IMG/VR virus record: IMGVR_UViG_3300032053_009941
Coordinates: 1 to 20,645 of that record
DNA from: a virus
DNA length: 20,645 nt
Direction: 5' to 3' (one strand)
Part shown: piece by piece, positions 1 to 20,275 of the stretch
How the letters are laid out: every line of letters starts with the position of its first letter
How positions within the stretch are numbered: the stretch's first letter is position 1
Position numbers and translations under genes: made by a program
The notes under the pieces: model-generated
Told to the model about the DNA's origin: nothing
Databases searched by the model: none
What the model saw: the letters and a program-made list of their open reading frames with translations, nothing else

Positions 1-1473
1 AGCCCCGTTGCCGCCCTCTTGCCCGGGCTGTCCCTCGGTTCCACCTTGCTGCTGCTGCGCCATCTGAGTTTTCATCTGCTGGAACTGGTTCCAGGTAGCG
101 TCCAGGATGCATTCTCCCAAACCATCGGGCAGTGGTTCTAGGTCGTTCAACTCCCTCATCTCGTCCACCGTCATCAGGTAGGTGGTCTGCTTCTTCTGGT
201 TGTCGATCTCGGCCGCCGCCTCCTTGGGGTCCAATCCCGTGAAGATGAACTGCAACTCCGGATTGATCGGCCAGATGAGATACCTGTTGATGTTGTCCTC
301 GATGAACATCAGAAGTGGGCGGAGACCCTTGTCACGGCTGTGCTTTACCCGTGTCTCGGTGTTGCTCTGGTTGCCCATGGACTGCGTCTGGCCTGTGTTC
401 CCGTAGAGAAAGTTGATCTCCGTGGGGTCGATGAGGCACAATCCACAGAACAGCTTGATCAGAAAATTGGACCACTCGCCAAACTCCATGTCCCTGTTGT
501 TCGTGTGGAAGTCGATCCAGGACGCCTCCTCAAAGTTCGTGATCGGAGTTCTCCAGGCGTTTGCGATGCCGCTCACCACCATGTGCCACTGGTTGGCGAA
601 GATCCTGAGCTTGTTGTCCGGCACTCTGGGCAAGTTCAGCATGCCCTTTGCCACGCTTCCCTGCTTGAAAAAAGCCGAATTGTAGTCAAACCCGTAGATG
701 GAAGACGTGACTATCCGGATGCCGAGTTCCAGCTCGCTGATCCCGTAACCATTCGCTCGAAGGTCTGTCCGTGGGTTGCGGACCGCGAAACACAGGTCGC
801 GCGGAGTGAACTCCTGGACCACCGATCCGTCGTAGACCTGGACGTATCGGATCTCCTTGTCCGCCTTCGAGATGTCCTTGTTCCACGGTTGGTCCACGAT
901 CCTGATCGATGAACCGTCGACGGCGTAGAAGTCAGCAGGGATCCCTTTTCGGTTATAGACAATTTCATGACAGGCCTGGTCGTAGAGCAGGCTGTCCTTG
1001 GCGAACTTCTGCAGAAACGTCGAGAACGAGTCCTTGATGTATCCCTGCGTCGATCCGCAGGTCGACACCCATTCCTCCAGATCGCGACATTGCGAACGTT
1101 CTTTCTTGGATGGGACAGCGTCCTTGTCCCGCATGCGGATCTGATAGCCCGATTCATTATCGTCATGCTGTGGACGAGAGAAAAGCTGGATCTGTTTCAG
1201 CCGTATTTGAAGGATTGGCGGAAAGATTGGCATCCGGTATGCCATGCGCTGCAGGGCATCGTAGCTGACCATTGAGTAACGTTCGCGGTACCCCAGCGTC
1301 TCGAGCAGGGCGAACGGATCCCAGTAGATGGCTTTCGGATCGTCAACGGGTGCCTCAGGGGCAAGCACCATGTTTGTCGGTCCGGCCTTCACCAGCGCCT
1401 CAGATCCGATCCGGTCTGTTACAGCGTCGGCGATGGCATCGATCACCAGGCCGACGGTCTCCTTGATGCCCAT
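1..1473 (-). CDS. Phage portal protein (3' end outside window)
   Basis: The frame is open from an ATG at 1473 to the window edge, giving 491 residues without a stop. A strong GGAGG site lies about 7 nt before the ATG. The portal forms the dodecameric ring at the capsid vertex through which DNA is packaged and ejected. What I see fits this family: a helical N-terminus, then RMPIFPPILQIRLKQI near residues 80-95 (the portal pattern of a Pro-hydrophobic stretch followed by a helix with Arg), a Tyr/Asp-rich wing region, and near residues 380-420 the segment GNTGQTQSMGNQSNTETRVK followed by a long helix. This last part is typical of the clip/stem-to-crown region. The last visible residues are Gln- and Gly-rich, as in many portal C-termini. 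It starts 13 nt after the 709-aa gene, so it is likely co-transcribed with the polyvalent genes. The family call is by resemblance; the subtype is not resolved. Confidence 0.85.
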   Translation of the reverse strand, partial: MGIKETVGLVIDAIADAVTDRIGSEALVKAGPTNMVLAPEAPVDDPKAIYWDPFALLETLGYRERYSMVSYDALQRMAYRMPIFPPILQIRLKQIQLFSRPQHDDNESGYQIRMRDKDAVPSKKERSQCRDLEEWVSTCGSTQGYIKDSFSTFLQKFAKDSLLYDQACHEIVYNRKGIPADFYAVDGSSIRIVDQPWNKDISKADKEIRYVQVYDGSVVQEFTPRDLCFAVRNPRTDLRANGYGISELELGIRIVTSSIYGFDYNSAFFKQGSVAKGMLNLPRVPDNKLRIFANQWHMVVSGIANAWRTPITNFEEASWIDFHTNNRDMEFGEWSNFLIKLFCGLCLIDPTEINFLYGNTGQTQSMGNQSNTETRVKHSRDKGLRPLLMFIEDNINRYLIWPINPELQFIFTGLDPKEAAAEIDNQKKQTTYLMTVDEMRELNDLEPLPDGLGECILDATWNQFQQMKTQMAQQQQGGTEGQPGQEGGNGA

Positions 1474-6600: not shown

Positions 6601-7599
6601 AGGATGTGGGAAGTTCACGAGGCTGTCTGGAAGCTCCATCTCGGACGAGATCCGGGGGAGCAGATCGGCGTGTTCCGCGATTGCCGGCCCCTTCTGGTCC
6701 GTCACGGGTCTGGGATCTGCCACGGGACAGGGGTTCGGTGGCACATCGAAGAACTCGTTCAGGTCGAGGTCTTCTCCGATGTCTCTTGGCGCAGCTTCTC
6801 GTCTCTCTTCTTCGCTCGGTCCCTCATTAACTGGTCGATCCGGTCTCTGTCCTCCTGCGGCAGCCTCCAGTAGCCCGGGACCTCCACCACCACTCGGGGC
6901 AGGTTCTTTTTCTCGCTCATGCTTGATCTCCTCTGGGCTGACGACGATCTTTGGTGCCGGCGCTACTGGAGCGGGTTTCTCCGGTTCCTTCTCTTCCAAT
7001 GATGCGAGATGGGCAAAGTGATGCGCCATGGCGGGGTAGTCTTTTTCATGTGGCATCGCCGAAATACCACGTCCCGGGTACCAATACTGATAATGATCAC
7101 CCACCTTCTTATGGTAACCCCCATGCTTGCTGCCCGGGATGGGCGTGAATCCGGCCGGAGGTTTCTCCGCGCCCGTTGCACCTCCGACGTTGCCTCCGAA
7201 CAAACCCATCTGCGTTGCCTTGATGATGACGCGATCATGCCAATACCGATAGACGTCAGACGCTGACCCTTTCTCGATCTTCTTGAGCTTCTTGTAGTAG
7301 TCCGCATCCTCGGTCAAGTGGTCCTTGGCGATCTCTCGGGCGATCTTTCGGTCCTTGGTGTGCTCCATCTCGACGAGAGTCCCGGCCGCCAGCTGCTCGG
7401 AGTCGAATTTGGAGTCAGACTTGCCGGCCGCCAGTCCACCGGGGATCTGGTCGTTTTTGACCCCCTTGGAGCCCTTCATCTTCTGGAAGATGTGCATCAC
7501 CAGTGCCCAGTTGTGCCCCTGTCCCTGTTTCTCCGCCGCCGCCTTGGCGCGGGCCCAGAGGCCTTCTTCTTCTTTTCCGTGGACCGCGTTGACTGGCAT
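3613..7599 (-). CDS. SNF2-type helicase, large polyvalent protein with DUF5661-like N-terminus
   Basis: A 1328-aa multidomain ATPase. An in-frame GTG at 7605 exists, but the ATG at 7599 has GGGGAG about 6 nt upstream, so I take the ATG. Residues 60-110 match the DUF5661 pattern (VEMEHTKD ... AKDHLTEDADYYKKLKKIE). QMGLF is at 130-134 and a HGGY-YWYP module at 149-185. The helicase core spans about 348-848: YPHQKEGAERI (Q region), DSAGLGKS at 376-383 (Walker A), DECH at 486-489 (motif II), SAT at 515-517 (motif III), ATISKGATGISLHD near 780-793 (motif V) and GRSHRLGS at 819-826 (motif VI). All expected catalytic residues are present. The C-terminus (about 1241-1311) is a His/Ala helical hairpin like the neighbouring 709-aa protein. 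The protein probably translocates on DNA, perhaps to remodel host or phage nucleoprotein after entry. It overlaps the stop region of the 1803-aa gene, so the two are likely translationally coupled. Confidence 0.88.
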   Translation of the reverse strand: MPVNAVHGKEEEGLWARAKAAAEKQGQGHNWALVMHIFQKMKGSKGVKNDQIPGGLAAGKSDSKFDSEQLAAGTLVEMEHTKDRKIAREIAKDHLTEDADYYKKLKKIEKGSASDVYRYWHDRVIIKATQMGLFGGNVGGATGAEKPPAGFTPIPGSKHGGYHKKVGDHYQYWYPGRGISAMPHEKDYPAMAHHFAHLASLEEKEPEKPAPVAPAPKIVVSPEEIKHEREKEPAPSGGGGPGLLEAAAGGQRPDRPVNEGPSEEERREAAPRDIGEDLDLNEFFDVPPNPCPVADPRPVTDQKGPAIAEHADLLPRISSEMELPDSLVNFPHPAPIIDRETGKQVGAIDKLYPHQKEGAERINWAWKHRDGVLIQDSAGLGKSLTALAALQAHGGKRNLVVVPVSGKENLKTQWMGPENSGVYGIDMQGVDKLSSTAPGYYIVSYDELLVPDLDENGKQKVNIEGEALTKFRPELFDGTWDTIAFDECHNMKKMGSRSVAARQLMTRADKVLYMSATPFENVKEMHYLWKTGLFNEGPEGQVLLGNDDSTDKFLKWAEYVGCEVKGKALDSVNNPTSPLPMAAVAAVMHVDGISINRVTSMEGLHARFDLMKEADIPEEHLGAVSLARQIIKDAEEYAVLPGGCLKALFTGWSKKYWEGVKTDKAIEYAKKALAEGKQVALYSEFKVPDHAHLAAIPKYLRRKAERLPDDQEGKAMQLLAQANHFEAMIARLPKMESTPKKLVDALGGPGKVAEIHGDTRKKATSEQAMYQSGEKKVCVATISKGATGISLHDTKGTAPRVQINLTIPYTSMGWLQLAGRSHRLGSKSETEMIWMIADTETEHSLAHKCGKRLGALGALTSGNPEKASEATSLMASDFAADIDPDASVDDMVDGLEAMVEEERTGKPHTQQLRDEAEAARAHFRQFAEARKGGRDVLKERYTDRQIQRQKEAMREGRRAAEQLKQHFVSGPDYGPQITYRPTLGMYEIDARGTGLQSKIKKMVTGAKVGGKQLAYLDTFLVPIENMPALAKVAKAHEIKVDLAKLPKEKGVEDLTKHEKTVEELLFKHALRVIPHPMYHGTNLVSVTGNTKELQSAIKKHTTQRYDRSYGWAVPADKLDEMTHDLNTKNYEKYSPEPRRSSWPEARTEEASGSTSKEYPGIDSKLAESFMSLHPTMRPTFKQVRFALSLIRQAPSSYTGPRDISGMRKYQVSGVIDSLFRKSFRMVIGPGTFLLLKGNKLPDYHKASVGYHKKMLEIHEKAPEKANDIAAHAHRIAMGAHHAALSGQLSPSEAKMYSDAARAMSENLQNKKPEKKQPKPEPKAEEKRV

Positions 7600-7601
7600 G
7601 A

Positions 7602-10600
7602 TCACTCCCCGATGAATGCGCGTGTTACGATGAGACGTGCGGCAGAAAATGCCTTTTCAAAATGGTTATGCTTTCTCAGAATGTTGACCAACTCGTCGAT
7701 TGTCGCGCCAACTGCCTTCCTGTGATCGCTTCCCGCTGGAATAAAAATCCCCGGAGCATCCTCTCGTGTCCCGTCTACGAGATACCCGTTCTTCCTTCCC
7801 TGTGAATGCAACCGGTCTTCAACCCATGACTCGAAAGCGTAGGCAAACAGTTCCCTGTCCTCGCTGTAATAGTTCCCTCCGGCAAGTTCCTTCGCTGCAG
7901 CGTAGTGATCGGTGTCATCTCCACGGCCAGAAAGACTTCTCCACTCGTCGAGTAGCTTGTTGTGCTTGTCTCTGGCCGCCACCATCGCGTGCCAGTTCTC
8001 GTCCTTCACAACGTCGGTGGTAAACGGAACAACATCTTCTCTCTTCCACCCACCGGGCGGAGGGTTGTCAGCGACTACCTGTGCACTGGAGCCCTCCACG
8101 GGGGCTTTGAGACTCGCTTCGTCAAACGCCGTCTCTTCTTTCGTCTTCTGACGCTTCTGAACCTCTTCTTTGAGAGCGGCAAGCTGATCCGACAGTTCAA
8201 TCCTTCTTTTTGCTCGGGCCTTTACTTCGTCTTCCGTTCTCTCCCTGTACTTGATCGTCTTCAGCACCTTTTCCATTGCCCGAGAGATCTCCACTGGCAT
8301 GCCCGTGGGAGATCTGCCCTCAGACAAAAACTTCGGCTTGCCCTCTCGGCTGTAGGCCATCATCAAGGCGTGGTCCATGAAATGTCCCCACTCATGGGCC
8401 AGCGATCCGACACCGTGTAGTTTTGTGATGTTGATAACCTGCCGACCCGGTTCATAGTGCGCCGTCGGTGCACGAAAACCACCACTTCCTCTAGCCCCGA
8501 ATGCGATACTCAATCGCTCCTTGATGCCAAGTTTGGTTGGCTCTACACCAAGAACGTCGGCCAGATCTATCAATCCGGCGTGGGCACCGGTGACATGAAA
8601 CTCCCGTTCTGCATCGCTTGCCCAGTTCCCATACTCCACCCCGGGGAACCCAAAGGACTTCATGAATTCGACGCTGTCTTTTGGTGGAGAAACCTTCGGC
8701 CCGCCTTTTCTTTCCGCCTTGCCGGTCTTTCTCGTCCACACCCACTTGGAGTCCCCGACCTCCAGTGTTCCCATCTCTGGCTTTTCTTTCTTGCTCTTTG
8801 CCTTTTCGACCACCCAGGACCACGCTTCTCCTGGTGCAGCGCTTCTCACCGCCTCAACCTTTTTGTCGAATTCGGTTCTCCCCTTTGTCCTTCTGATCTC
8901 TCCGCTCCACGTTGCGCTGGCTCCAATGGCCGGACCGCCAGATCTCATTCGCACCACGTGCCCAACAAGCTCGGCAAACCGGTTCCCGAAAGCGCCGACA
9001 TACAGCTTGCTTGTTGCAGCCTCCACCTTGTCAGAAATCCAGAGTGGGCTGATCGTCCCGTCGCTGTTTCTTCGCCATGCTGCAAGACCGCCCTTCGCCA
9101 TGGTCTCGCGCTGGAAGGAAGGAGAGTTCTGGAGCTTCCCCCACGCCTTGTAATGATCGGCCAACGTCCCCTCGTTCCCCGCCGCCAGCCAATGCATGAA
9201 ATCGAATTCCGTTCGACGCATCATTCCCCCCTCGCCCTCCCATCCAAATGCGAATGGGCCATCCTCCTTGAACCGTTCTTTGCCCAGCCTTCTGCCCAGT
9301 GCCGCGTCTTGCCACTCGTCGAACAAATCATGGACGTCGTCGATGGTCTTGCACCGGGAAAGACCGCTCAGAAGAACGCTCGCTCCCCGTCGATAGTGAT
9401 CGCGGATGTCGGGATGGTCGTATGGCTTGCCAGCTACGCTGTCCAGGATCTCTTTCTTTGCAAAGGCTGCAGCTGGCTCTACTCCAGCTTCCCGATCCAT
9501 GGCCGCCCAATCTGCTTTCCACGTCCCCAACACGTTCGCCTTGGTGACGAGCGTTCGGGCCAACGTGGGGTTCTTCTCCAGATCTTCCATCTTCATCGAT
9601 GCGAGATCTGCGCGAGAACCCCCGATCTTCTTTCCGGCTGTCTCGAACTTGCGATCGGCTTCTTTCTCCTGACTGACTGTCTCCTTGACCTTCTCCGGCG
9701 TGACAACGAGTTTCGGCTGTGGCTTAGCATCATCCGGTTTGATCCGTCGATATCGTCCATCAGGCTCGCGAACAGCGATTCCTTGCTGAACCCACTTCTC
9801 CCACATTGGGCGTGGCCCTTCGCCTGTTATCATGCCAGACCCGAGCCCACCCTTGTCCTCTGCCCATGCTGCCGCTCGATCATGCAACTCCGTCGCGATC
9901 CCCTGCCTGCGATGCTTCTCATCCACATAAACCTGCCCGACATACCACGGTGCACTTGGCGTTTGCCGTTGAAGTAGTATGTAGGCGATTTTCCCGCCGG
10001 ATCGATCCCGAACTCTCCACAGCCGTCCCTCGCCGGATGTGATCATGTCTCCTGCCGGCTCGGGGCCCTCGATACTTGTTCGCCTATTATCCTCCGGCTT
10101 CGCCCGTTCATGTGCCTCGTGAACCTCTTTGGGCTCTCCCTCATGTGGCTTGCCGGTCATCCCTTTGTCCGGGTACCAGTAGCCCCACCCGCCCGATGGG
10201 TTCTTCTTGCGAAATCCCCCGTGGCGACCGTGAGGGATCGATTCCCAGCCAGCTCCAGGTGGTTTGTTTGTCGTAGCTGCTTGCCCTACCGTCGGCTTCT
10301 CGGTCTTTTCGGTCTTCCTGGCCGGCCGATCGAACAAGCCAAGCTGCTCCGCCTTGATCAGATCTGTCAGGTTGGCAAATCCCTTTTCGGTCTTCACCTG
10401 CCCCAGCGCCCCAATCAGACCCGTCACCTGCTCCGACGTGAGCTTCGCCGCCCGAGCCGATTCCGCCAGCTGCGGATCTGCACCCACCGCGTAGGCCATG
10501 GCTTCCCCGAGGCGCATCCTGACCTTGTCCGTATCCACATCCCGCTCCTCGAGCGCCGCCGCCGACCGTTCGGCATCCATCAACCGCCGCAACTCTCGCA

Positions 10601-13013
10601 CCACAGCATCGATGAACATCGCACCGGGCTTGGACTTGTGAAGCGACGATCGCATGATGCTCGCGAACATGGCTTCCTGTCCCGCTGCAACGGGGGGTGG
10701 TCCATCCTCGGGCACCTCCTCCGTCGTGGTCCCCTTTCCCTTCTTCTTCATTGCCTCCGTTATCCCGAAAGTCGCCTCGAGCTGGGCCTGTTCCACCTTC
10801 GCTCGCTTCTTGTTCTCCGAAATCGCCCTCTTGCTTATCTGAGACAGGCCGAACGATCGATCCAGGGCAACATCCGGGGTTTCCTTCTCCTCGCCGCCAA
10901 ACAGCGATCCGCCAGCCACCTCGCGAGCTGCCTCGGCCCGCCGAGCGAACTCTCGGAATCCAGCTGCCATCTTGTTGGGCCCGTTATACTCGTCGAGCAC
11001 CTGCAACAGCGCCCGGGCCACATTGTCCTTCTGAATCGTCAGGGCCGGATGATTTGGATCTAGAGTTTCGTTGACCGTCTGCTTGTCGAAATAGTCCTCG
11101 TGCGTCTTGATCTGCGATTGCGCACGAAAAGCGATATCTCCCCTGACCGCCGCTTCAAGCGCTCCTCGGATGTCCCATCCCGCCGCCTCCGCCCGGAGCA
11201 TGTACGGAACGGACTTGGCGATGTTACCCCTGGTCTCCTGGTTCATCTTGGACAGTAAAGTGGCATCAGGGATCATGCGTGCGGCAAGCACCCGCTCCAC
11301 CCTTAGCCGACCATCCTCATTCAACAGACCAGTCTCGGGATCTACGAACTCGTCACGGTTCATTTCATCGATGATGCCAGACCGTTCGAGGGCCTTCACA
11401 AAGCCGGCTGACTTGGGATTGTGCAGATAGGACGCGAGGGATTGATCTGGCTCCATGTCCGTCGTCAGAGCACCAACCAACTCATGGTTCACGAAGTTCT
11501 TCCCGATGGCAACCTCTGCGGTCCTGGGATCCAGGCCCTTGGTCAAGGACTCGTTCAGCCGCCGACCGAGCATGCGCAGCTTATCCGTTTCCTTGCCGGC
11601 CTGGACCTTTCTCACCAATATCGGATGCTTCATGGCCTGCACGTCAGCCGTTGACAGGCCAAAGTTCTTCGCCTGGGACATGAGATAGGTTCGAAGACGA
11701 GCAGCCGATTCGGGATGCTGCGCGTAGGCCAGCTGTTGCGCCATTGTGCGCCCGTTGCCCCCGAGAACCACGTTGTCTTCCGTCACAACCGGCGTGCCGT
11801 TCACCCCGTCGGGGTTCGTGTTGATCACGATCTCTGGCCGGATCGTCTGGCCGATCTTGTGGACCTTCATCTGCTCGCCCACTAACTCGTGATAGCGCCG
11901 CTCCTGGACCCCGGTCGGGTAGTCCTTCCGTGGCGCCATGGTCAGCGGATCGTGGCTAGCGATCAAATCGTCGGCCTCGACCACGGCATACTGGGCGTCC
12001 AGTTCGCGGATCCCCGCCCCGGTCTTGTCACGCATGAACACCTTGGTGTGGTCTCCCTGAAGTTCCTTCTGTGGCTCTGTCGATCGTGGCTTGCGAGCTG
12101 CAACCAGAAAACCGTTCGGCTGGGCAACGACGGCCACCTCGTGCCCGGGCCTGGTTGCCGCCAGCTTCGCCGCCGATTGTCGATCCGGGCTGAAGCCCAC
12201 GATCTCCTCCCATCCTCCCTTCCCCAACTCGTCGAGCGAGATGTCCTTGACGTCGGCCCGGGGCGTCAGCTCCGGCTTCTCTTCTCGAGCACGCTTTCCC
12301 GCCCGCTCCGCCCTTTGCTTGGCGATCGCATCCTTGGTGCCACGCTTCTCGTGGTACTGGTTGATCATCCCCCGGAGCCCCTCCTCGCCGATGCTGGTCG
12401 TGTGTCCGGTCTCGTCGTGCCGGATCGTCACGTTCCCCTGCCCCTGGTCGTGCTTCATCACCTCCCAGTGGCCCTCGTGCCCCTCGTGCTCGCCCTTGAT
12501 CTTGGTCCCCTCGTGGAGCTTCTCGCCCGAGACGATCACCCCACGCTTGGGGATGTAGTAGTAGTACCGATACTTGGGCTTCGCTCGGCCGGTAAGTTCC
12601 CTCTTGAAGTACTTGTGGCCAGCGCCCTTCTCGAGCGGATCGACCATCATGGCCACAAGAAAGCTTTTCATCCGCACCACAGGCCAGCGCTGCGGTCCTG
12701 TGGCCATCTGCGTCTGGATGTACTGCAGGGCCCGACGCATGATCTCCTGACGACGGTACGGATCGTCTGGCAGGGCTCCACGTAGATCGTGAAGCATGCT
12801 CCCGTGGGCGTCAGTGGGCGTCGACGATGTGGACCAGGCTGTCAGTCGCTGTCGCAACACCGTTTCGATGTCTCGTGGCAAGCCGAGACCAACGAAGACA
12901 TCGTCGATCGTTTTGACGACCTTTCCGGTCGGCATTGGATCTGCCGGCACGGTACGGCCGTTGACGAGGGATTGAAGCGAGCTGTTGGAAATGACAGTGC
13001 GCACCTGGGGCAT
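7602..13013 (-). CDS. 1803-aa polyvalent protein: ddrB-ParB-like, GNAT and zincin-like domains
   Basis: Start: the ATG at 13013 has GGAG 7 nt upstream; an in-frame ATG at 13043 lies in a small hairpin with a poorly spaced site, so I reject it. Numbering is from 13013. Domains by eye: an N-terminal module with KYRYYYYIPKRG (about 147-158) and a His-rich stretch; a small alpha/beta unit (about 265-310); a ddrB-ParB-like domain (about 340-680) with GGNGRTMAQQ, catalytic-type GNGR at 419-422; a helical part with QEAMF at 779-783; QLGLF at 890-894; a HGGF-YWYP module (921-958); a GNAT acetyltransferase (about 985-1090) with VYVDEKHRRQGIAT as the acetyl-CoA loop; an unassigned 350-residue region; and a zincin-like domain with HEWGH at 1540-1544 and possible third ligand E1721 in ELFAYAFE. 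The layout fits polyvalent proteins that enter the cell with phage DNA to counter host functions. Substrates of each domain are unknown. Confidence 0.85.
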   Translation of the reverse strand: MPQVRTVISNSSLQSLVNGRTVPADPMPTGKVVKTIDDVFVGLGLPRDIETVLRQRLTAWSTSSTPTDAHGSMLHDLRGALPDDPYRRQEIMRRALQYIQTQMATGPQRWPVVRMKSFLVAMMVDPLEKGAGHKYFKRELTGRAKPKYRYYYYIPKRGVIVSGEKLHEGTKIKGEHEGHEGHWEVMKHDQGQGNVTIRHDETGHTTSIGEEGLRGMINQYHEKRGTKDAIAKQRAERAGKRAREEKPELTPRADVKDISLDELGKGGWEEIVGFSPDRQSAAKLAATRPGHEVAVVAQPNGFLVAARKPRSTEPQKELQGDHTKVFMRDKTGAGIRELDAQYAVVEADDLIASHDPLTMAPRKDYPTGVQERRYHELVGEQMKVHKIGQTIRPEIVINTNPDGVNGTPVVTEDNVVLGGNGRTMAQQLAYAQHPESAARLRTYLMSQAKNFGLSTADVQAMKHPILVRKVQAGKETDKLRMLGRRLNESLTKGLDPRTAEVAIGKNFVNHELVGALTTDMEPDQSLASYLHNPKSAGFVKALERSGIIDEMNRDEFVDPETGLLNEDGRLRVERVLAARMIPDATLLSKMNQETRGNIAKSVPYMLRAEAAGWDIRGALEAAVRGDIAFRAQSQIKTHEDYFDKQTVNETLDPNHPALTIQKDNVARALLQVLDEYNGPNKMAAGFREFARRAEAAREVAGGSLFGGEEKETPDVALDRSFGLSQISKRAISENKKRAKVEQAQLEATFGITEAMKKKGKGTTTEEVPEDGPPPVAAGQEAMFASIMRSSLHKSKPGAMFIDAVVRELRRLMDAERSAAALEERDVDTDKVRMRLGEAMAYAVGADPQLAESARAAKLTSEQVTGLIGALGQVKTEKGFANLTDLIKAEQLGLFDRPARKTEKTEKPTVGQAATTNKPPGAGWESIPHGRHGGFRKKNPSGGWGYWYPDKGMTGKPHEGEPKEVHEAHERAKPEDNRRTSIEGPEPAGDMITSGEGRLWRVRDRSGGKIAYILLQRQTPSAPWYVGQVYVDEKHRRQGIATELHDRAAAWAEDKGGLGSGMITGEGPRPMWEKWVQQGIAVREPDGRYRRIKPDDAKPQPKLVVTPEKVKETVSQEKEADRKFETAGKKIGGSRADLASMKMEDLEKNPTLARTLVTKANVLGTWKADWAAMDREAGVEPAAAFAKKEILDSVAGKPYDHPDIRDHYRRGASVLLSGLSRCKTIDDVHDLFDEWQDAALGRRLGKERFKEDGPFAFGWEGEGGMMRRTEFDFMHWLAAGNEGTLADHYKAWGKLQNSPSFQRETMAKGGLAAWRRNSDGTISPLWISDKVEAATSKLYVGAFGNRFAELVGHVVRMRSGGPAIGASATWSGEIRRTKGRTEFDKKVEAVRSAAPGEAWSWVVEKAKSKKEKPEMGTLEVGDSKWVWTRKTGKAERKGGPKVSPPKDSVEFMKSFGFPGVEYGNWASDAEREFHVTGAHAGLIDLADVLGVEPTKLGIKERLSIAFGARGSGGFRAPTAHYEPGRQVINITKLHGVGSLAHEWGHFMDHALMMAYSREGKPKFLSEGRSPTGMPVEISRAMEKVLKTIKYRERTEDEVKARAKRRIELSDQLAALKEEVQKRQKTKEETAFDEASLKAPVEGSSAQVVADNPPPGGWKREDVVPFTTDVVKDENWHAMVAARDKHNKLLDEWRSLSGRGDDTDHYAAAKELAGGNYYSEDRELFAYAFESWVEDRLHSQGRKNGYLVDGTREDAPGIFIPAGSDHRKAVGATIDELVNILRKHNHFEKAFSAARLIVTRAFIGE

Positions 13014-13035
13014 AGGTGACTCCAAACGGAGCCCC

Positions 13036-13071
13036 GGGCACATGCCCCTCGGAGGGCGCGGCGCGGCGCCC
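13036..13071 (-). promoter_or_regulatory. GC-rich inverted repeats in the leader of the 1803-aa gene
   Basis: The 69-nt gap between the 193-aa gene stop (13083) and the chosen ATG (13013) contains a 6-bp all-GC inverted repeat, GGGCGC/GCGCCC with a 6-nt loop (13054-13071), and a smaller GGGC/GCCC hairpin with a 4-nt loop (13036-13047). No T-run follows on the transcript, so it is not a standard terminator. It may tune translation or transcript processing. Given the high local GC, chance is a real alternative. Confidence 0.3.
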
Positions 13072-13674: not shown

Positions 13675-16563
13675 CTATGTGTCTTCTTTCAGTATCCCGG
13701 GATAGGAAAGTACCGGGTTTCCGTTGCTTACACCGTAGCTTTTTAGGCCAAACGGGTCAAATGTTTCGTTTTCTTCCACATCGATCTTTGGTGGGCTCAG
13801 GGCCAATGGAGCAGCAGATCCGTCCAGAACTGCCTGTTTTGGTTGTGTTTCATCGGATGGAAGTCCACCCACCCAATGTGCCGAGAAACCGCCTCCCATT
13901 CTGATTGCCACGTCACAAAACCAGGTTGCCATCGTTAAATCGTCGTGTTCGCCAACGGACACAACCTTCCCCGAGTGAACACTCATGCACTGCAACTCAC
14001 CCATCCACAAGTCCGTCAACTCGATCGATCTCTCGTCACCTCGAGGTATCCGCCATTTTCGGTTTTCGAAACTCATCCTGAGCGACGGAATCCCGCGATC
14101 GATGTGGTGCTTGTTCACGGCTATGGAGGTCATCCCCTTGCGCCAGGGCTTCTTCGGCGTGATGCCAGTCGTGAAGAACGATCGAATCGGAATGTCTGTT
14201 TCTCGGCGAAGCTCCTGTGGCCATACCCGCTGCATCTGGTTCGCTTCGATGTGAAACATGTCGGGTCTGAACTTGACGTAACAGTCCTTGATCACGTCTT
14301 TCTGGGATTGGAACGTCATCCCGCGCTCACGGATGATCTCGACGATCCATCGGTTGCCCAGCTTATCCAGGGCCACGATGAACACCACGAAGTAGTCAGA
14401 GCCGATCTCGGTCGACATGGCGATGTCTACGCCCGCATATCTGACCGTCCCCATTTCGTCCCAGTAGCTCGCCGGCAGACCGAGGCGATACGGCATCCTG
14501 ATGTCAGATCCGGCGAACAGCGAGGAGGGAAACAGAGATGACTCGTCCGTCATTGGAACGCAGTTATGAACCGCAATCCCGTCGGCTACATAACTGTTTT
14601 CATCCTCCACCTCAATATTGAATACCTCTCCCTCATAGTCATATGGAATCAGTGTTTCCTTAATCCTAGTCCAGCTATGCGATCTGTTATGCAATCTCCT
14701 TTCCCGAATCGAATCCGCACCTCCGCCATCAACCGTCAACCTCCAAGACGTTCTAAATTTATATTCTCTCCCCCGGCCGTCGTTGTCGAAAAATCCGAAT
14801 CCTTCTCCTCCTAGTTTCTGAATATTTATCGTTGATACGATCCCGCATTTGGCAAGTAAATACTGAATGTCATGCAATAGTAAATTTGAAACACTTGACA
14901 CCCTTACTTGCCTGCCCGCTTCGACGCTTCCGTCACCGTCAATGTATCCCATGCATATTGCGAATGACATTTCCCGAGAAATGTTTCTAAATACTTGCGG
15001 GATCCTTTTGTTGGCAGCGCCTTTCCCGAACATTCTCTCAAACCAATCTGCAACTATTGAAGAGCATGCAATAATCTGTATCGTGTTACCGTCCACATCC
15101 TCAACTGTTCTGCATTTGATCCCAAAAATATCCAATACGGATTCGATTACTTCCCGTGCAAAGGTATCTTTCTCATGGAGACCAAAGGACCAAACTAATG
15201 ATTTTCCTTTTGCGCCGATGTGTCCCTCGGCAAGCCACAACCCAACAATCCTCATCAACTCTTCGGATATGGGAATCTCAATCGGAACAGACTTTGCTCC
15301 ACTTTTTCCTACAGATCCTGACGGGATATGTTTTGCTGAACCACGTGCATACATTCTGGATCTGCACGACGTAAGAAGATACGGAACACTGCAGGCATGA
15401 TCAAGTCTGATGCTCGTTAGCTGTTCATCAAAATCGGATGGAATGGGGAAGGTTACGGAATCGCCGTTTGTTAAATTGAGAGATGAGACAAAACCATCCT
15501 GTGTAAAGATTGGATGATCTGGCGTAACGTGCAACAAGCCTTTTATTCTAAGTAGACGTCCGATGTAATATCTTCTGAAGGTTTGAATCACCTTTTTCCA
15601 TGCACCTGTATGCGCAAGGACAATATCACCTGTTTTTATGCGTTCGATTTCAACCGCCCCACACAGGGTTTCGATCATGGTTTTTGGTCTACAACACTGA
15701 AATTCTCGAGCAAATCTTGTAGGTCCAATCTCCTGCTTCTTGTCTTCGAGCTTTTCCAGGCTGTAGATCTCGGGGAACAGCGGCTTTCCATCTTCGATCG
15801 CTGGGAAGTTTATTACGTGGTAACGTTTTGTCTGTTCGATTTTAGAGTACAAATCCGCAGCATGCAGGGGCGTGCCAACGCATATGATCTGCCCGTCCGG
15901 GGTCACCATGTTTGATATGGCAGAAAAGAAAAACTCCGTGACCCGATCTCTGACCGTCTCGCTGTACAAGCACTCATCGTCCAGACAGTCATCCGCCACT
16001 ATCCAGTTCGGGTGACCTCCTCGGATGCGCGTGCCCCAACCACGTCCACGTATCAGTGTCCCTGTTGTTGTTCTGATTTCACGCTTAGTCCAGATTTTGT
16101 CCTTGCCAATCGGAAGTAGGTGGAGCAGCTTTTCGTTGCCTTCTAGCTGTTCTTTCGTTTCTGCTAATCGTTCCTCCGCTAGCGTCTGCGAAGCTGAAAA
16201 AATGTATCCCAGGGATCCGGGGTGATTGATGTCAGCTTTCCAGATCGGAAATGCAACCCCCAAGGCCATTGACTTTCCATGGCCACGAGCAGCTCTGGAC
16301 AACACCCTATCGTGATCTCTGACAGCCTCATCCCACGCGAGATGATGTCTCCCAACCATGAACCGACCATTGAACGGTGGCTGTGGTGGCCCCTGGAGCA
16401 TGTTCACCGCGTAGTAGATGAACGAAACCTTCATCATCTGCTCATGCAGACGTTCCCTGCTTTCCTTGTCATCGAACCGTTTGTCTCTGGAGTGTGGATC
16501 TACGATGACACCATTGATTAGCGGTGTACGTGGTGGCGGATCGTAGCGAAGGAGCAGATTCAC
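13675..16563 (-). CDS. terL: Terminase large subunit precursor containing an intein
   Basis: This is the ATP-driven DNA packaging motor with a genome-cutting nuclease domain. The 962-aa precursor begins with GTG at 16563, overlapping the previous stop (GTGA); its AAGGAGG is about 14 nt away, so coupling to the upstream gene is likely. ATPase part: RAARGHGKS (about 91-98) as Walker A, IVADD (188-192) as Walker B with nearby acids, and ICVGTPLH (227-234) as coupling motif. Nuclease part: D713 in YAGVDIAMS, E773 in FHIEANQ, and HDD at 873-875 in VGEHDDLTMAT, the expected acidic triad. An intein fills 290-667, between the two domains. Removing it gives 584 aa, a normal TerL length, and restores EFQ-CVPMTDESSLFP, which matches the usual terminase linker. 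Its position between lysis genes and the capsid block is normal apart from the giant genes downstream. Confidence 0.95.
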   Translation of the reverse strand: MNLLLRYDPPPRTPLINGVIVDPHSRDKRFDDKESRERLHEQMMKVSFIYYAVNMLQGPPQPPFNGRFMVGRHHLAWDEAVRDHDRVLSRAARGHGKSMALGVAFPIWKADINHPGSLGYIFSASQTLAEERLAETKEQLEGNEKLLHLLPIGKDKIWTKREIRTTTGTLIRGRGWGTRIRGGHPNWIVADDCLDDECLYSETVRDRVTEFFFSAISNMVTPDGQIICVGTPLHAADLYSKIEQTKRYHVINFPAIEDGKPLFPEIYSLEKLEDKKQEIGPTRFAREFQCCRPKTMIETLCGAVEIERIKTGDIVLAHTGAWKKVIQTFRRYYIGRLLRIKGLLHVTPDHPIFTQDGFVSSLNLTNGDSVTFPIPSDFDEQLTSIRLDHACSVPYLLTSCRSRMYARGSAKHIPSGSVGKSGAKSVPIEIPISEELMRIVGLWLAEGHIGAKGKSLVWSFGLHEKDTFAREVIESVLDIFGIKCRTVEDVDGNTIQIIACSSIVADWFERMFGKGAANKRIPQVFRNISREMSFAICMGYIDGDGSVEAGRQVRVSSVSNLLLHDIQYLLAKCGIVSTINIQKLGGEGFGFFDNDGRGREYKFRTSWRLTVDGGGADSIRERRLHNRSHSWTRIKETLIPYDYEGEVFNIEVEDENSYVADGIAVHNCVPMTDESSLFPSSLFAGSDIRMPYRLGLPASYWDEMGTVRYAGVDIAMSTEIGSDYFVVFIVALDKLGNRWIVEIIRERGMTFQSQKDVIKDCYVKFRPDMFHIEANQMQRVWPQELRRETDIPIRSFFTTGITPKKPWRKGMTSIAVNKHHIDRGIPSLRMSFENRKWRIPRGDERSIELTDLWMGELQCMSVHSGKVVSVGEHDDLTMATWFCDVAIRMGGGFSAHWVGGLPSDETQPKQAVLDGSAAPLALSPPKIDVEENETFDPFGLKSYGVSNGNPVLSYPGILKEDT
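14563..15696 (-). mobile_element. Intein with LAGLIDADG homing endonuclease inside terL
   Basis: A 378-residue in-frame insert with the known splicing blocks. Block A: C1 C2 R P K T M I (C290, T295, matching the C-x4-T-x-I spacing of inteins). Block B: HVTPDHPI with T347 and H350. Block C: IVGLWLAEGHIG (about 439-450). Block E: CMGYIDGDGSV (about 537-547) with D542 and D544. Blocks F and G: GEVFNIEVEDENSYVADGIAVHN ending in H666-N667, followed by C668 as the +1 nucleophile. The two LAGLIDADG-type motifs keep their acidic residues, so the endonuclease may be active and able to home into intein-free terL alleles. The insert is clearly AT-richer than its surroundings. The adjacent C290/C291 make the exact N-boundary a choice; spacing and the restored extein favour C290. 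Confidence 0.93.
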
Positions 16564-16787: not shown

Positions 16788-17222
16788 TTATGCGGACTCT
16801 TCGCAACAAAGCGTGTGTTGTAACTTGTGCCATGCTGCCAAAAAGTTACCTCCGGTGATGATCCGTTCAAGCTGTTCGCAGATTTTCTCGCTCAACTCTC
16901 CAATGGCGTCCTCGGCAACCTTGTCAGCAGTCTTTCCTATCTCCGTCAACCTCTCCTCTAGCGCTTCGATCCTCTCCCTCAGGGATTGCAGGGTGGCTAA
17001 CTCTGGAGCCTGGGCACCGGTTCCGCCGGTTGGAGGTCTGCACTCCTTCCAGTTCTTTAACGCAGGCCGCGTGAGATCTGCAATGCTGACAGTGCCAGAG
17101 TTGGCCAGCCTCTCTTGGAGCAATGGCTTCAACAACACACACACCTTGTCTGGCGTAAGCCAATCCAGCCCGAACTCATCTACGATCTTGATCTGAAGTA
17201 CCAGCGTTTTCTCGTAGTGCAT
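16788..17222 (-). CDS. Hypothetical 144-aa coiled-coil protein, candidate small terminase
   Basis: The ATG at 17222 shares its A with the TGA of the endolysin gene (TGATG), with GGAGG 8 nt upstream. Residues 15-60 look like a compact helical unit (LTPDKVCVLLKPLLQERLANS ... IADLTRPALKNW) that could be a DNA-binding head. After a Pro/Gly linker, residues 75-125 form a strong heptad-type coiled coil (LQSLRERIEALEERLTEIG ... AIGELSEKICEQLERI). A DNA-binding head plus an oligomerising coil is the general plan of small terminase subunits, and these often lie just upstream of terL. I cannot identify a family signature, so this is inference from layout and position. Confidence 0.7.
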   Translation of the reverse strand: MHYEKTLVLQIKIVDEFGLDWLTPDKVCVLLKPLLQERLANSGTVSIADLTRPALKNWKECRPPTGGTGAQAPELATLQSLRERIEALEERLTEIGKTADKVAEDAIGELSEKICEQLERIITGGNFLAAWHKLQHTLCCEESA

Positions 17223-17974
17223 CAGCCATCCCTCCAGTGCAGCGCTTTCTCTGCAACGCGTTTGAGAAAATCAGGATAACCCTCCCTGCCACCGCCGCGA
17301 TTGCCCATGACCCCGCAAAACGCAGAATTTGTGAGTGGTCCCCACTTGCCGTCCATCGGTCCGCAGTCGCATCCGAACACCGTTTGCAGAGCGTCCTGGA
17401 TGAACAACACCCGGCTGTTTCGGGCCTTCCCGGTCAGGTCGCCGGGACGCAACACCGGCGCCGTCCCGTCGTCACAGTGCCAATGATCGTGGTGCTCTGA
17501 GTCATATGCCCAATTCAACACGGTCCCGAACGTTCGCCGTAGAACAGCCTCGATTCCGAGATAGGTTTTTCTGTTCGTTCCGTAAGCCGTCTCGGTCACA
17601 AGTGACATGCAGTCGTTGTCCCACCACACCGAGTCGATGTCGATCGCCCTCCCTTGGCAATGCCGACACGGCTTGTGATCCTTGTCAGTTCTCCACTTGT
17701 CATGCCATGCACCGGCAAGCACCAGCGACGACAAATCCGGGAGCAGATGCGACAACTCTTCGACGAAACAAGCCACCTTGGCCTCGAACGCCGGAGTCCA
17801 CCTCACAATCCTTGGCTTGCCCAATGCGGCCTCGAACGCCGGAGTCCACCTCACAATCCTTGGCTTGCCCAATGCCCAATATGGATCTTTGGCCGTCCTC
17901 GCGTATCGGATCAGGATCCGACCGCCGCCGAAAGTGCTGTATGTCCTCGTTTCACTTTGCGGTGTCGGTTCCAT
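17222..17974 (-). CDS. Endolysin: M15-type metallopeptidase with peptidoglycan-binding C-terminus
   Basis: Cuts peptide cross-links of the host cell wall at lysis. A TTG at 17989 is in frame, but the ATG at 17974 has GGGGGAGAG just upstream, so I use it (250 aa). The metallopeptidase signature is HxxGxAxD at H105-D112 (RHCQGRAIDID) and EHHDHWH at 160-166, the zinc-binding pattern of the M15 / extensin-like carboxypeptidase group. Residues 178-222 look like a peptidoglycan-binding domain (FIQDALQTVFG ... DGKWGPLTNSAF). No signal peptide is seen, so it would need a holin to reach the wall. Residues 34-65 are an exact 16-residue tandem duplication, absent from any expected fold. It overlaps the neighbouring 73-aa gene. 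Several Cys lie around the active site (C103, C106, C122). Confidence 0.85.
   Translation of the reverse strand: MEPTPQSETRTYSTFGGGRILIRYARTAKDPYWALGKPRIVRWTPAFEAALGKPRIVRWTPAFEAKVACFVEELSHLLPDLSSLVLAGAWHDKWRTDKDHKPCRHCQGRAIDIDSVWWDNDCMSLVTETAYGTNRKTYLGIEAVLRRTFGTVLNWAYDSEHHDHWHCDDGTAPVLRPGDLTGKARNSRVLFIQDALQTVFGCDCGPMDGKWGPLTNSAFCGVMGNRGGGREGYPDFLKRVAEKALHWRDG
17780..17875 (-). repeat. 48-bp perfect tandem duplication inside the endolysin gene
   Basis: Two identical 48-bp units abut at 17780-17827 and 17828-17875. The unit is a multiple of three, so the frame is kept and the peptide ALGKPRIVRWTPAFEA occurs twice in a row. I found no base difference between copies, which points to a very recent event or an assembly error. 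Confidence 0.97.
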
Positions 17975-18173
17975 CTCTCTCCCCCGCAACGATGCGCATG
18001 ATTTGGGACGTAAGAATCACGTCCGTTGTCTTCAACGGGCAATCTTCGATTTGCGCTGGTCCGTCGTCCTCGCTCAGCCAGCACCACTCTCCTCCCTCTT
18101 CGCCGTGATACCGTGCTGGGCACTCGTCGCAGTTGTCGATCTGGATCACTCGCACCAATCGTTCGGCCATCAT
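17952..18173 (-). CDS. Small Cys-rich protein (73 aa), possible zinc-binding
   Basis: Starts at ATGATG (18173 or 18170) overlapping the TGA of the transglycosylase gene, with AAGGAG just upstream. The longer reading frame back to 18317 lies wholly inside the transglycosylase gene and is not supported. The protein has CDEC at residues 15-18, C31 after exactly 12 residues, and C45-P at the end of the motif, a four-Cys arrangement typical of small zinc-stabilised phage proteins. Its function is unknown. The 69-aa protein at 18977-19186 shares the C-x2-C-x12-C spacing, suggesting a common origin. Its 3' end overlaps the endolysin start. Confidence 0.72.
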   Translation of the reverse strand: MMAERLVRVIQIDNCDECPARYHGEEGGEWCWLSEDDGPAQIEDCPLKTTDVILTSQIMRIVAGERDGTDTAK

Positions 18174-18613
18174 ACCTCTCCTTCTTTCTCCCGTATCGCG
18201 TCTTCGAGTCGTCGCAGCCATCGCCTGAAGCTGCCGCGCCAGCTCCGTGAATGCCAGTTGTACCGCGCCCATTCCGTCTGCTTGCACTGCCACGTCCGCC
18301 TGAGCCTCGTAGAACATGCCATGCTGCTCCAGGACAAGATCTCGGCCGCCCGGGTCAGGTTGTTGCGGTAGTCGAGATAAAACCGCTTCTCCGCGCAGCT
18401 CGCGTGTACCTGGGCCAGACCGATGTCACAGCGACCGTCCCACTCCCTGCGGAAAACACGGTTTCGACACTTGGTCTCGGTCATCACCGCAGCCAGAATC
18501 ACCGTCACCGGCACACCATGTCTGACAGCGGCTCGTTGCGCCTCATGCACAACCAAATCTGGGCGTTGGCACTGCGGATCGAGCGACAGGAAGGCTAGCA
18601 GCAACACGGACAC
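18170..18613 (-). CDS. Lytic transglycosylase, SLT-like
   Basis: A 147-aa protein that probably cleaves the glycan strand of peptidoglycan. It starts with GTG at 18613, 8 nt after the stop of the RRM gene, with a modest AGGTG site. Residues 1-12 are hydrophobic (MSVLLLAFLSL), possibly a short export signal. The lysozyme-like fold is visible: VPVTVILAAVMTETKC with E46 as the likely catalytic acid, CDIGLAQVH (63-70) as the GLMQ-type motif, NNLTRAAEIL (84-93), and ARYNW (116-120) matching the conserved Tyr-Asn near the C-terminus. It is shorter than cellular Slt enzymes but normal for a phage one. It may act in lysis with the endolysin or in cell-wall penetration at entry; the lysis-type neighbourhood favours the first. 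Confidence 0.8.
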   Translation of the reverse strand: MSVLLLAFLSLDPQCQRPDLVVHEAQRAAVRHGVPVTVILAAVMTETKCRNRVFRREWDGRCDIGLAQVHASCAEKRFYLDYRNNLTRAAEILSWSSMACSTRLRRTWQCKQTEWARYNWHSRSWRGSFRRWLRRLEDAIREKEGEV

Positions 18614-18621
18614 CGGAACAC

Positions 18622-18915
18622 CTAGTCCCTGGTTCTCGTCGATCGTCTCCCGTTTCCCTCTTTCTCGTCTTTCCTCTTGTCCTGTGCGTCGCTCACTCTG
18701 ACGGTGCGCCCGTTGATCTTCTGCCCGTCCTTCTTCTTGGCCTTCTCCGCCGCCTCTTCCGTGGTGAACTCCACGAATCCGAAGCCTCTGCTCTTGTTTG
18801 TTTCTTTCTCCCGAATCACCTTCGCGGACACGATCTCGCCACAGTCCAAAAACGCTTCCTCGAGATCTGCGTCGTCCGTCCCCCAGCTGATACCTCCTAC
18901 AAAGATCTTCTTCAC
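18622..18915 (-). CDS. RNA-recognition-motif (RRM) RNA-binding protein
   Basis: A 97-aa single-RRM protein. The GTG at 18915 has GGAG about 7 nt upstream; the open frame back to 19095 covers the 69-aa gene in another frame and is rejected. RNP2 is KIFVGGIS at 3-10 and RNP1 is RGFGFVEF at about 43-50, with the beta-alpha-beta-beta-alpha-beta order complete (… DLEEAFLDCGEIVSAKVI … AAEKAKK … INGRTVRVSDA). The aromatic residues that stack on RNA are kept. The C-terminal 20 residues are basic and charged, like the tails of cyanobacterial and other bacterial Rbp proteins. RRM genes occur in some bacteria but are unusual in phages. It may bind phage or host mRNA. A hairpin lies in its own leader (18937-18972). 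Confidence 0.9.
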   Translation of the reverse strand: MKKIFVGGISWGTDDADLEEAFLDCGEIVSAKVIREKETNKSRGFGFVEFTTEEAAEKAKKKDGQKINGRTVRVSDAQDKRKDEKEGNGRRSTRTRD

Positions 18916-18936
18916 TTCTCTTCTCCGTTGTTGTGT

Positions 18937-18976: not shown

Positions 18977-19186
18977 CTATCTGGCCTCGGCCAGGGATCC
19001 GTTATCCCCCCTCCAGGGCTTCCATTCTGGACATGGAGTTGAAGGTGTCCACGCATCAGGGCAGACACTGCACAGCCAGCGTACAATCGGACCACCCGGA
19101 TCGAGTTGGTGCGGATTTAGATCGCACACGATCGCACCCGCGATACCCCACCTGGCGTGACCACACGTTTTGCACCCGTAAGTCAT
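18977..19186 (-). CDS. Small Cys-rich protein (69 aa), possible zinc-binding
   Basis: The ATG at 19186 overlaps the TGA of the 68-aa gene (ATGA), which supports the start. Six Cys are present: CKTC at residues 5-8, C21 after exactly 12 residues, a second C-x2-C (CSVC) near 39-42, and a final CPEW. This looks like a small zinc-stabilised fold. The opening C-x2-C-x12-C spacing equals that of the 73-aa protein two genes downstream. No function can be assigned. It is the gene directly before the RRM gene. Confidence 0.65.
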   Translation of the reverse strand: MTYGCKTCGHARWGIAGAIVCDLNPHQLDPGGPIVRWLCSVCPDAWTPSTPCPEWKPWRGDNGSLAEAR

Positions 19187-19442: not shown

Positions 19443-19817
19443 TTAGCCGGTGACGCAACTTGCCGGGGGCTTTTCTGTCAACTCTTGACCGCAAGCCGAA
19501 CAGCGCTGGGCCCTACGAACGGCTTTCAATTCATACTTGTGGCTCCCACTCTCCGGATCCTCCACGGTATCGAAGGTGACTTCGTATTCGGGGATGGTCT
19601 CACCCTCTTCTACCTCGTCGAACAGATCGCTCATGCCTATGTATTGGACATCGTCACGACACATTTTTCGATCTGCCGACAGGATAAACACCCTGGACAG
19701 AAACGGCTGAAGCATGTCCCAGGTCTGTCCGCCAGGTCCGTCCGCCATCATGAGACACACGACCTCTCCAGATATGTTGAATCTTCCAAGGCGCTGTCTT
19801 AAGCCCCGTTCCATCAT
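19443..19817 (-). CDS. Hypothetical 124-aa protein with C-terminal CxxC
   Basis: Starts at ATGATG (19817 or 19814), overlapping the TGA of the lipoprotein-like gene, with GAGG about 8 nt upstream. The open frame back to 20003 is inside that gene and rejected. The first 80 residues read like a compact mixed fold (FNISGEVVCLMMADG ... FLSRVFILSADRKMCRDDVQYIGMS). An acidic stretch follows (FDEVEEGETIPEYEVTFDTV), and the end carries a knuckle, CSACGQEL, typical of zinc binding. No family is recognised. Confidence 0.65.
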   Translation of the reverse strand: MMERGLRQRLGRFNISGEVVCLMMADGPGGQTWDMLQPFLSRVFILSADRKMCRDDVQYIGMSDLFDEVEEGETIPEYEVTFDTVEDPESGSHKYELKAVRRAQRCSACGQELTEKPPASCVTG

Positions 19818-20275
19818 TGCACCAACCTCAACAGGCCGCTCTTTTCCAGGCTCGTCTTCAGTCTGGCCAGCGCCTCGAGGATCTGCGCCAGGGTGGCCTT
19901 GGCCTCCGTCTCGTTGCCGATGATCAGAGCTGCGCAAGCCGTCTGCACACCAAGGTGGATCCCGTTCGCCGAGACCACGCTCGCCTTCTGCACAGTCCAG
20001 CATGTCTTGAACCCCGGACAGGTCTCAGCCCACGATCCGAGCGTATCGACCACAGGCCTGGACGTGGGAGCCTCCTTGCGACAATCGGTGATCTTCTCCC
20101 TGCACAGGTCCTCGAGCATGGGATTTGCCCGTTTCATCAGGCTTGCGGTCACGTCGTTTACCGCGTTCAACCTCTGCGCCGTGGTCATCCCGCAGCTGGC
20201 GCAAAATAGGCAAACGATCCCGAAGATGCCCAGGACAACCAGAAAAGATCCAACTCGGGCCCGATGGTCGTTCAT
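19814..20275 (-). CDS. Putative lipoprotein, 153 aa
   Basis: The ATG at 20275 overlaps the stop of the holin-like gene (ATGA), with GAGGAGGG about 10 nt upstream; the frame further back to 20629 is a shadow of that gene. The N-terminus has a basic start (NDHRAR), a hydrophobic helix (VGSFLVVLGIFGIVCLF) and CASCGM, a plausible lipobox with C28 as the modified Cys. The -3 residue is Cys rather than the usual Leu, so this is not perfect. The rest is helical with several Cys (C58, C62, C80, C86, C104 region), possibly disulphide-bonded in the periplasm. Directly after a holin-like gene, a spanin-like lysis role is conceivable, but the length and Cys content are atypical. Confidence 0.7.
   Translation of the reverse strand: MNDHRARVGSFLVVLGIFGIVCLFCASCGMTTAQRLNAVNDVTASLMKRANPMLEDLCREKITDCRKEAPTSRPVVDTLGSWAETCPGFKTCWTVQKASVVSANGIHLGVQTACAALIIGNETEAKATLAQILEALARLKTSLEKSGLLRLVQ

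Follow-up and report, generated by a model that had tools for sequence, protein, structure and literature searches.

Genes at the locus

The window, i.e., the whole stretch of DNA that was analyzed, was one complete IMG/VR virus record, linear and 20,645 bases long. The record is a metagenome fragment, and its source is an uncultivated tailed phage. All genes were located on the minus strand, on which the lysis genes were followed by the lytic transglycosylase (LT) gene, other small genes, the gene of a large terminase with an intein, and those of a 193-aa protein, three long proteins and the portal. The features around the RRM gene are given in Table 1. The RRM gene started with GTG at 18915 and ended with TAG at 18622–18624. 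Its GC content was 0.56, compared with 0.57 for the window. The codon use of the gene was phage-like, with a mean log-odds value of 0.165 (0.130 for the LT gene), where uniform synonymous codons gave −0.127 (sd 0.054).

Table 1. Features of the phage genome fragment, with the evidence for each.
Feature	Position	Strand	Evidence
Gene for 97-aa single-RRM protein	18622..18915	minus	Pfam RRM_1, AlphaFold model, PDB fold matches
RNP2 motif IFVGGI, residues 4-9	18889..18906	minus	translation and alignment with other RRMs
RNP1 motif RGFGFVEF, residues 43-50	18766..18789	minus	translation and alignment
Shine-Dalgarno-like GGAG, 7 nt before GTG of RRM gene	18923..18926	minus	sequence
Lytic transglycosylase (LT), 147 aa, GTG start	18170..18613	minus	PHROG transglycosylase E 0.037; homology to L073; motifs
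Small gene 3' of LT, own Shine-Dalgarno (SD), no Pfam match	17952..18173	minus	ORF, sequence
Extensin-like_C peptidase, lysis block	17222..17989	minus	Pfam PF06904 28.1 bits; 38% to L072 homologue
Small cysteine-pair protein directly 5' of RRM gene, no Pfam match	18977..19186	minus	ORF, synteny
Lipoprotein-like gene, lysis block	19814..20275	minus	homologous to L002 8173-8646, E 4e-6
Terminase large subunit with intein	13675..16563	minus	PHROG 38 E 4e-51, Terminase_6C, intein models
Portal protein, runs off record	1..1473	minus	Pfam Phage_portal 72 bits

The LT gene started 8 nt past the RRM stop codon, its own SD was poor, and its stop codon overlapped the start of the next gene (ATGATG). The LT was aligned by BLASTP (E 3e-6) with its syntenic homologue in the related record L073, which matched Pfam SLT with 55 bits. 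Moreover, the catalytic Glu (E46) and the GLxQ motif were conserved. The fold model of the LT protein was poor (pLDDT 48.6); hence, its identity rests on the sequence motifs and synteny, by which the gene is judged to be a real lytic transglycosylase. The sequence-only reading, which placed the RRM gene directly before a transglycosylase gene in a lysis block, was borne out in both respects. In the relatives, an Amidase_2 or extensin-like peptidase gene, and in some of them an LT gene as well, was located just upstream of the terminase gene; the label of a lysis block is therefore fair. The cysteine-pair gene occupied, by synteny, the place of the zinc-ribbon gene in L006, L073 and L088.

The terminase shared about 50–60% identity with the L002 and L006 terminases and was also related to those of L072–L085. 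Its intein (about residues 289–667) was in frame, carried LAGLIDADG motifs and lay between REFQ and CVPMTDESSLF, and the exteins aligned to the intein-free L002 terminase. A 1330-aa protein between the terminase and the portal (3613–7605, minus strand) matched a Strawberry-notch/SNF2-type helicase and, at the N-terminus, DUF5661. In the translations, the motif GW..IP.G.HGG[FY]R......W.YWYP..G recurred in several long proteins between the terminase and the portal (window 3613–13043, L002 and L006). The extensin-like peptidase gene contained an exact, in-frame 48-nt tandem duplication at 17780–17875, which is either a recent duplication or an assembly artefact.

Promoter counts in the window were not above those in shuffled sequences. 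Terminator-like sites numbered 7, compared with 3.1 (sd 1.6) in the shuffles, and the minus strand had none in the interval from the RRM gene to the LT gene. As a clue to the host, the L002 homologue of the terminase and the portal were compared with isolates; their nearest matches were remote and disagreed with each other (Bacteroides phages, 28%; SPO1-like phages, 38%).

Domain and predicted fold of the RRM protein

The RRM is the commonest RNA-binding domain of eukaryotes and is present in some bacteria, where its roles are only now emerging. The full translation of the window protein is MKKIFVGGISWGTDDADLEEAFLDCGEIVSAKVIREKETNKSRGFGFVEFTTEEAAEKAKKKDGQKINGRTVRVSDAQDKRKDEKEGNGRRSTRTRD. Pfam RRM_1 (PF00076) was matched over model positions 1–70 of 70 with 77.8 bits (E 5.7e-22), which was above the curated cut-off of 20.7 bits. 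The three aromatic positions for RNA contact were kept (F5, F45 and F47), and G44, F45 and F47 of RNP1 were invariant among 26 aligned RRMs. The tail was short and basic (KDEKEGNGRRSTRTRD), lacked PDPRWA and was not glycine-rich. The AlphaFold model, computed with 26 sequences, had the classical β-α-β-β-α-β fold of the RRM with a pLDDT of 88. Hundreds of RRMs in the PDB matched the model in Foldseek, with E values of 1e-9 to 1e-7 and mostly 1–2 Å rmsd, and the matches included the RRM–RNA complexes of RBM38, SUP-12, HuR and TIA-1. The window protein is a true one-domain RRM with intact RNP1 and RNP2, as had been read from the DNA with exact coordinates. The RNA-contact residues suggest that it can bind RNA. 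In known RRM proteins, a surface of this kind binds single-stranded RNA over a length of a few nucleotides; some RRMs bind single-stranded DNA or proteins instead, which was counted against a role as an RNA regulator.

Relation to bacterial RRM proteins

The closest bacterial sequences were 38–45% identical to the window protein and included those of Piscirickettsia salmonis plasmids, a Patescibacteria MAG and betaproteobacterial plasmids. The Patescibacteria MAG (43%) was the sole match in a scan of genome contigs, which was limited to exact 8-mers. RRM genes were found on 158 plasmid records of P. salmonis. Those examined (L007, L008 and L013–L016) were located near ParA, AAA ATPase and transposase genes and sometimes near phage tail or terminase genes.

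The bacterial single-RRM proteins, namely cyanobacterial Rbp, Bacteroides RbpB and the Piscirickettsia plasmid proteins, likewise have a short tail and a single RRM, about 80 aa long, in which RNP1 and RNP2 are canonical, and those sampled were about 31–45% identical to the window protein. In contrast to them, the window protein is encoded by a phage in a late block. Its RNP2 belonged to the IFVGG type, which is also that of hnRNP A1, whereas most bacterial rows of the alignment had YVGNL. In cyanobacterial Rbp proteins, the tail of cluster I is glycine-rich or absent, and that of cluster II carries the PDPRWA motif (PMC9333190). The window tail showed neither the glycine-rich composition nor the motif, but the tails within cluster I differ from one another and can be dispensed with. 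The score of the window protein for the Rbp regulator family (NF058537) was 78.7 bits, below the NCBIfam curated cut-off of 100. Thus, the proposed likeness to cyanobacterial Rbp proteins held at the level of the domain but did not extend to the family score, the tail or a placement in a tree. The tree of 62 rows and 89 columns, which included no cyanobacterial Rbp row, contained no well-supported group with the window protein, and the phylogeny that had been suggested for finding the donor lineage consequently pointed to none.

Occurrence of RRM genes in phages and viruses

No PHROG was matched by the RRM protein at E ≤ 1. Four RRM queries against 50,697 phage records matched three records, which were bacterial chromosome by gene content (for the two Acinetobacter records, whose RRM matches were near-identical, the gene content was taken from one). 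The candidates Microcystis phage MaAM05 (glyS, murJ, smc and fliM) and Acinetobacter phage MD-2021a (topA, rpmB and rpmG) were rejected on the basis of these genes. L003 and L004 (MW495066) and L123 (CAKLQH020000005) are filed as phage, carry housekeeping genes and are apparently mislabelled bacterial chromosome. In BFVD, every named RRM match at E ≤ 1e-3 was from a giant virus or a baculovirus. These proteins are virus-encoded like the window RRM and were its best BFVD fold matches, but they belong to eukaryotic viruses, are longer and were 14–32% identical to it.

Two motif scans of IMG/VR detected 50 contigs with RRM genes (40 and 10), and this number is a lower bound because only the common RNP1 spellings are detected. 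A terminase match was found in 13 of the 47 RRM-bearing contigs tested. A few of these RRM genes, such as those near the ends of prophage-like records (L034, L035 and L041), may be host genes. The nearest sequence found was that of L070 (52% over 77 aa), whose RRM gene was located a few genes before the terminase gene. In L043, the RRM gene was 3' of the terminase gene; in L057, it was flanked by genes whose sequences look like those of DnaB helicase and primase. Such viral genes (e.g., in L070, L057, L027 and L043) also encode single RRMs, and some are accompanied by a terminase, but the neighbourhoods differ. A conserved link between RRM and terminase genes was rejected; with the window left out, the distance was no smaller than chance (Fisher p 0.20). 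The first 40 RRM-bearing viral contigs shared no gene with the window phage beyond the RRM. No close relative was retrieved from IMG/VR with the 8-mers of the window RRM, which is the single sequence of its exact lineage. In L023, L027, L028, L046 and L048, similar RRM genes had glycosyltransferase-like genes in their vicinity, together with a gene for a small protein that contains an AILIYEDP-like stretch; these contigs may belong to a single phage group in which the RRM is conserved.

The literature search found no paper on phage-encoded canonical RRM proteins. The translational repressor RegA of phage T4 is a post-transcriptional regulator that has been described with an RRM-fold RNA-binding domain (PMC7824862). 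Unlike RegA, the window protein has canonical RNP1 and RNP2, and an assignment to the RegA type was rejected, as no RegA family model was among the Pfam and PHROG matches at E ≤ 1. The claim that RRM genes are rare in phages was thus confirmed, the qualification being that such genes are present on about 50 contigs of uncultivated viruses.

The slot before the transglycosylase gene in related phages

No RRM_1 match was found in the 44 related IMG/VR records, many of which are fragments and some of which are related via one protein only; therefore, the RRM gene is accessory in this phage group. Where the block before the terminase was readable, a shared frame of zinc-ribbon gene, slot, LT and terminase was found. 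The slot was empty in L073 (zinc ribbon 9237–9545, LT 9549–10004) and in L088 (zinc ribbon 6778–7062, LT 7160–7636). In L006, an 81-aa protein with a weak helix-turn-helix match lay in the slot, between the zinc ribbon and the LT, which was followed by TerL. In the window phage, the same slot holds the RRM gene. This comparison suggests that the slot is a variable site for accessory genes. The RRM as a conserved component of the lysis block of this group was rejected, given that no relative carried it and that the slot was empty or held another gene. The search for phage RRM genes in the same position, which had been proposed as a check, gave none in the relatives, and the other phage RRM genes were in varied places.

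Proposed role and alternatives

The reading that we favour, and hold to be somewhat probable, is that an accessory RRM gene was horizontally acquired, and that late in infection its product binds single-stranded RNA in trans and tunes phage or host mRNA at the level of translation or stability. The control of late mRNA that the sequence-only reading had suggested is thus still plausible. A phage lineage would have acquired a single-RRM gene horizontally, and the gene would have settled in the variable slot of the conserved lysis–packaging block. The protein would be made late, along with the late genes, since its gene is closely packed with them. Acting in trans, it would then attach to short single-stranded segments of mRNA and may thereby change how phage and/or host messages are translated or how stable they are, by analogy with bacterial one-RRM proteins. 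An RRM protein was able to repress translation in E. coli (PMC10942595); RbpB of Bacteroides, which has a single RRM, binds RNA globally and acts together with sRNAs (PMC11697453). The support counted for this reading comprised the RRM_1 match with intact RNP motifs, the RRM fold with its matches to RRM–RNA complexes, the 8-nt packing with the LT gene, the location on one strand, the slot comparison, the lack of RRM_1 in all 44 relatives and the mobility of RRM genes on plasmids.

Alternatively, the protein may time lysis or regulate its own expression by binding its polycistronic message near the RRM–LT junction, thereby holding back or coupling translation of the LT. Translational coupling of the two genes is conceivable, because the LT gene starts so close behind the RRM stop codon and its own SD is poor. 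However, the relatives have this block with no RRM in it, and the other phage RRM genes adjoin DnaB and primase genes (L057) or precede the terminase gene (L070), with no recognizable lysis genes beside them. Furthermore, the nearness to the terminase was not above chance. The tie to lysis timing that the sequence-only reading had suggested was not supported by these neighbourhoods, and a lysis timer is unlikely here. It is likewise unlikely that the gene is a recently captured host gene without a selected function in the phage. The single occurrence in this lineage and the mobility of RRM genes on plasmids fit such a passenger, whereas the open frame, the retention of all key residues, the gene's own SD and the phage-like codon use argue against it. 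A role in host takeover or counter-defence, in which the protein would coat or remodel phage RNA or bind host sRNA or mRNA and so protect phage messages or disturb host regulation, is consistent with an accessory gene of sporadic spread in a variable slot, a pattern that genes of this sort typically show; a context of defence or counter-defence genes was not found, and we regard this role as improbable. An assembly join or host contamination, conceivable for a linear 20.6-kb metagenome fragment, is very improbable because phage genes homologous to L002, L006, L072 and L073 flank the RRM gene on both sides, and its spacing, strand, GC content and codon use all fit. The RRM gene is hence judged to lie within phage DNA, in line with the earlier description of it as phage-encoded, and the refuting case named there, a host-derived gene at a contig join, is unlikely.

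The favoured reading of a horizontally acquired regulator could be extended to a general one, in which single-RRM proteins were recruited by phages again and again to regulate infection post-transcriptionally. They would form a class not described so far, and its member here would be wired into the late lysis–packaging operon. This extension is doubtful at present. The observation itself was correct: a member of a known protein family is encoded at an unusual site, the late block of a phage. In tailed phages, no RRM was found in PHROGs, BFVD or deposited phage genomes, mislabelled records aside, yet about 50 viral contigs carry one. The phage RRM proteins are small proteins with which it may be asked whether phages use RRM-based control of translation.
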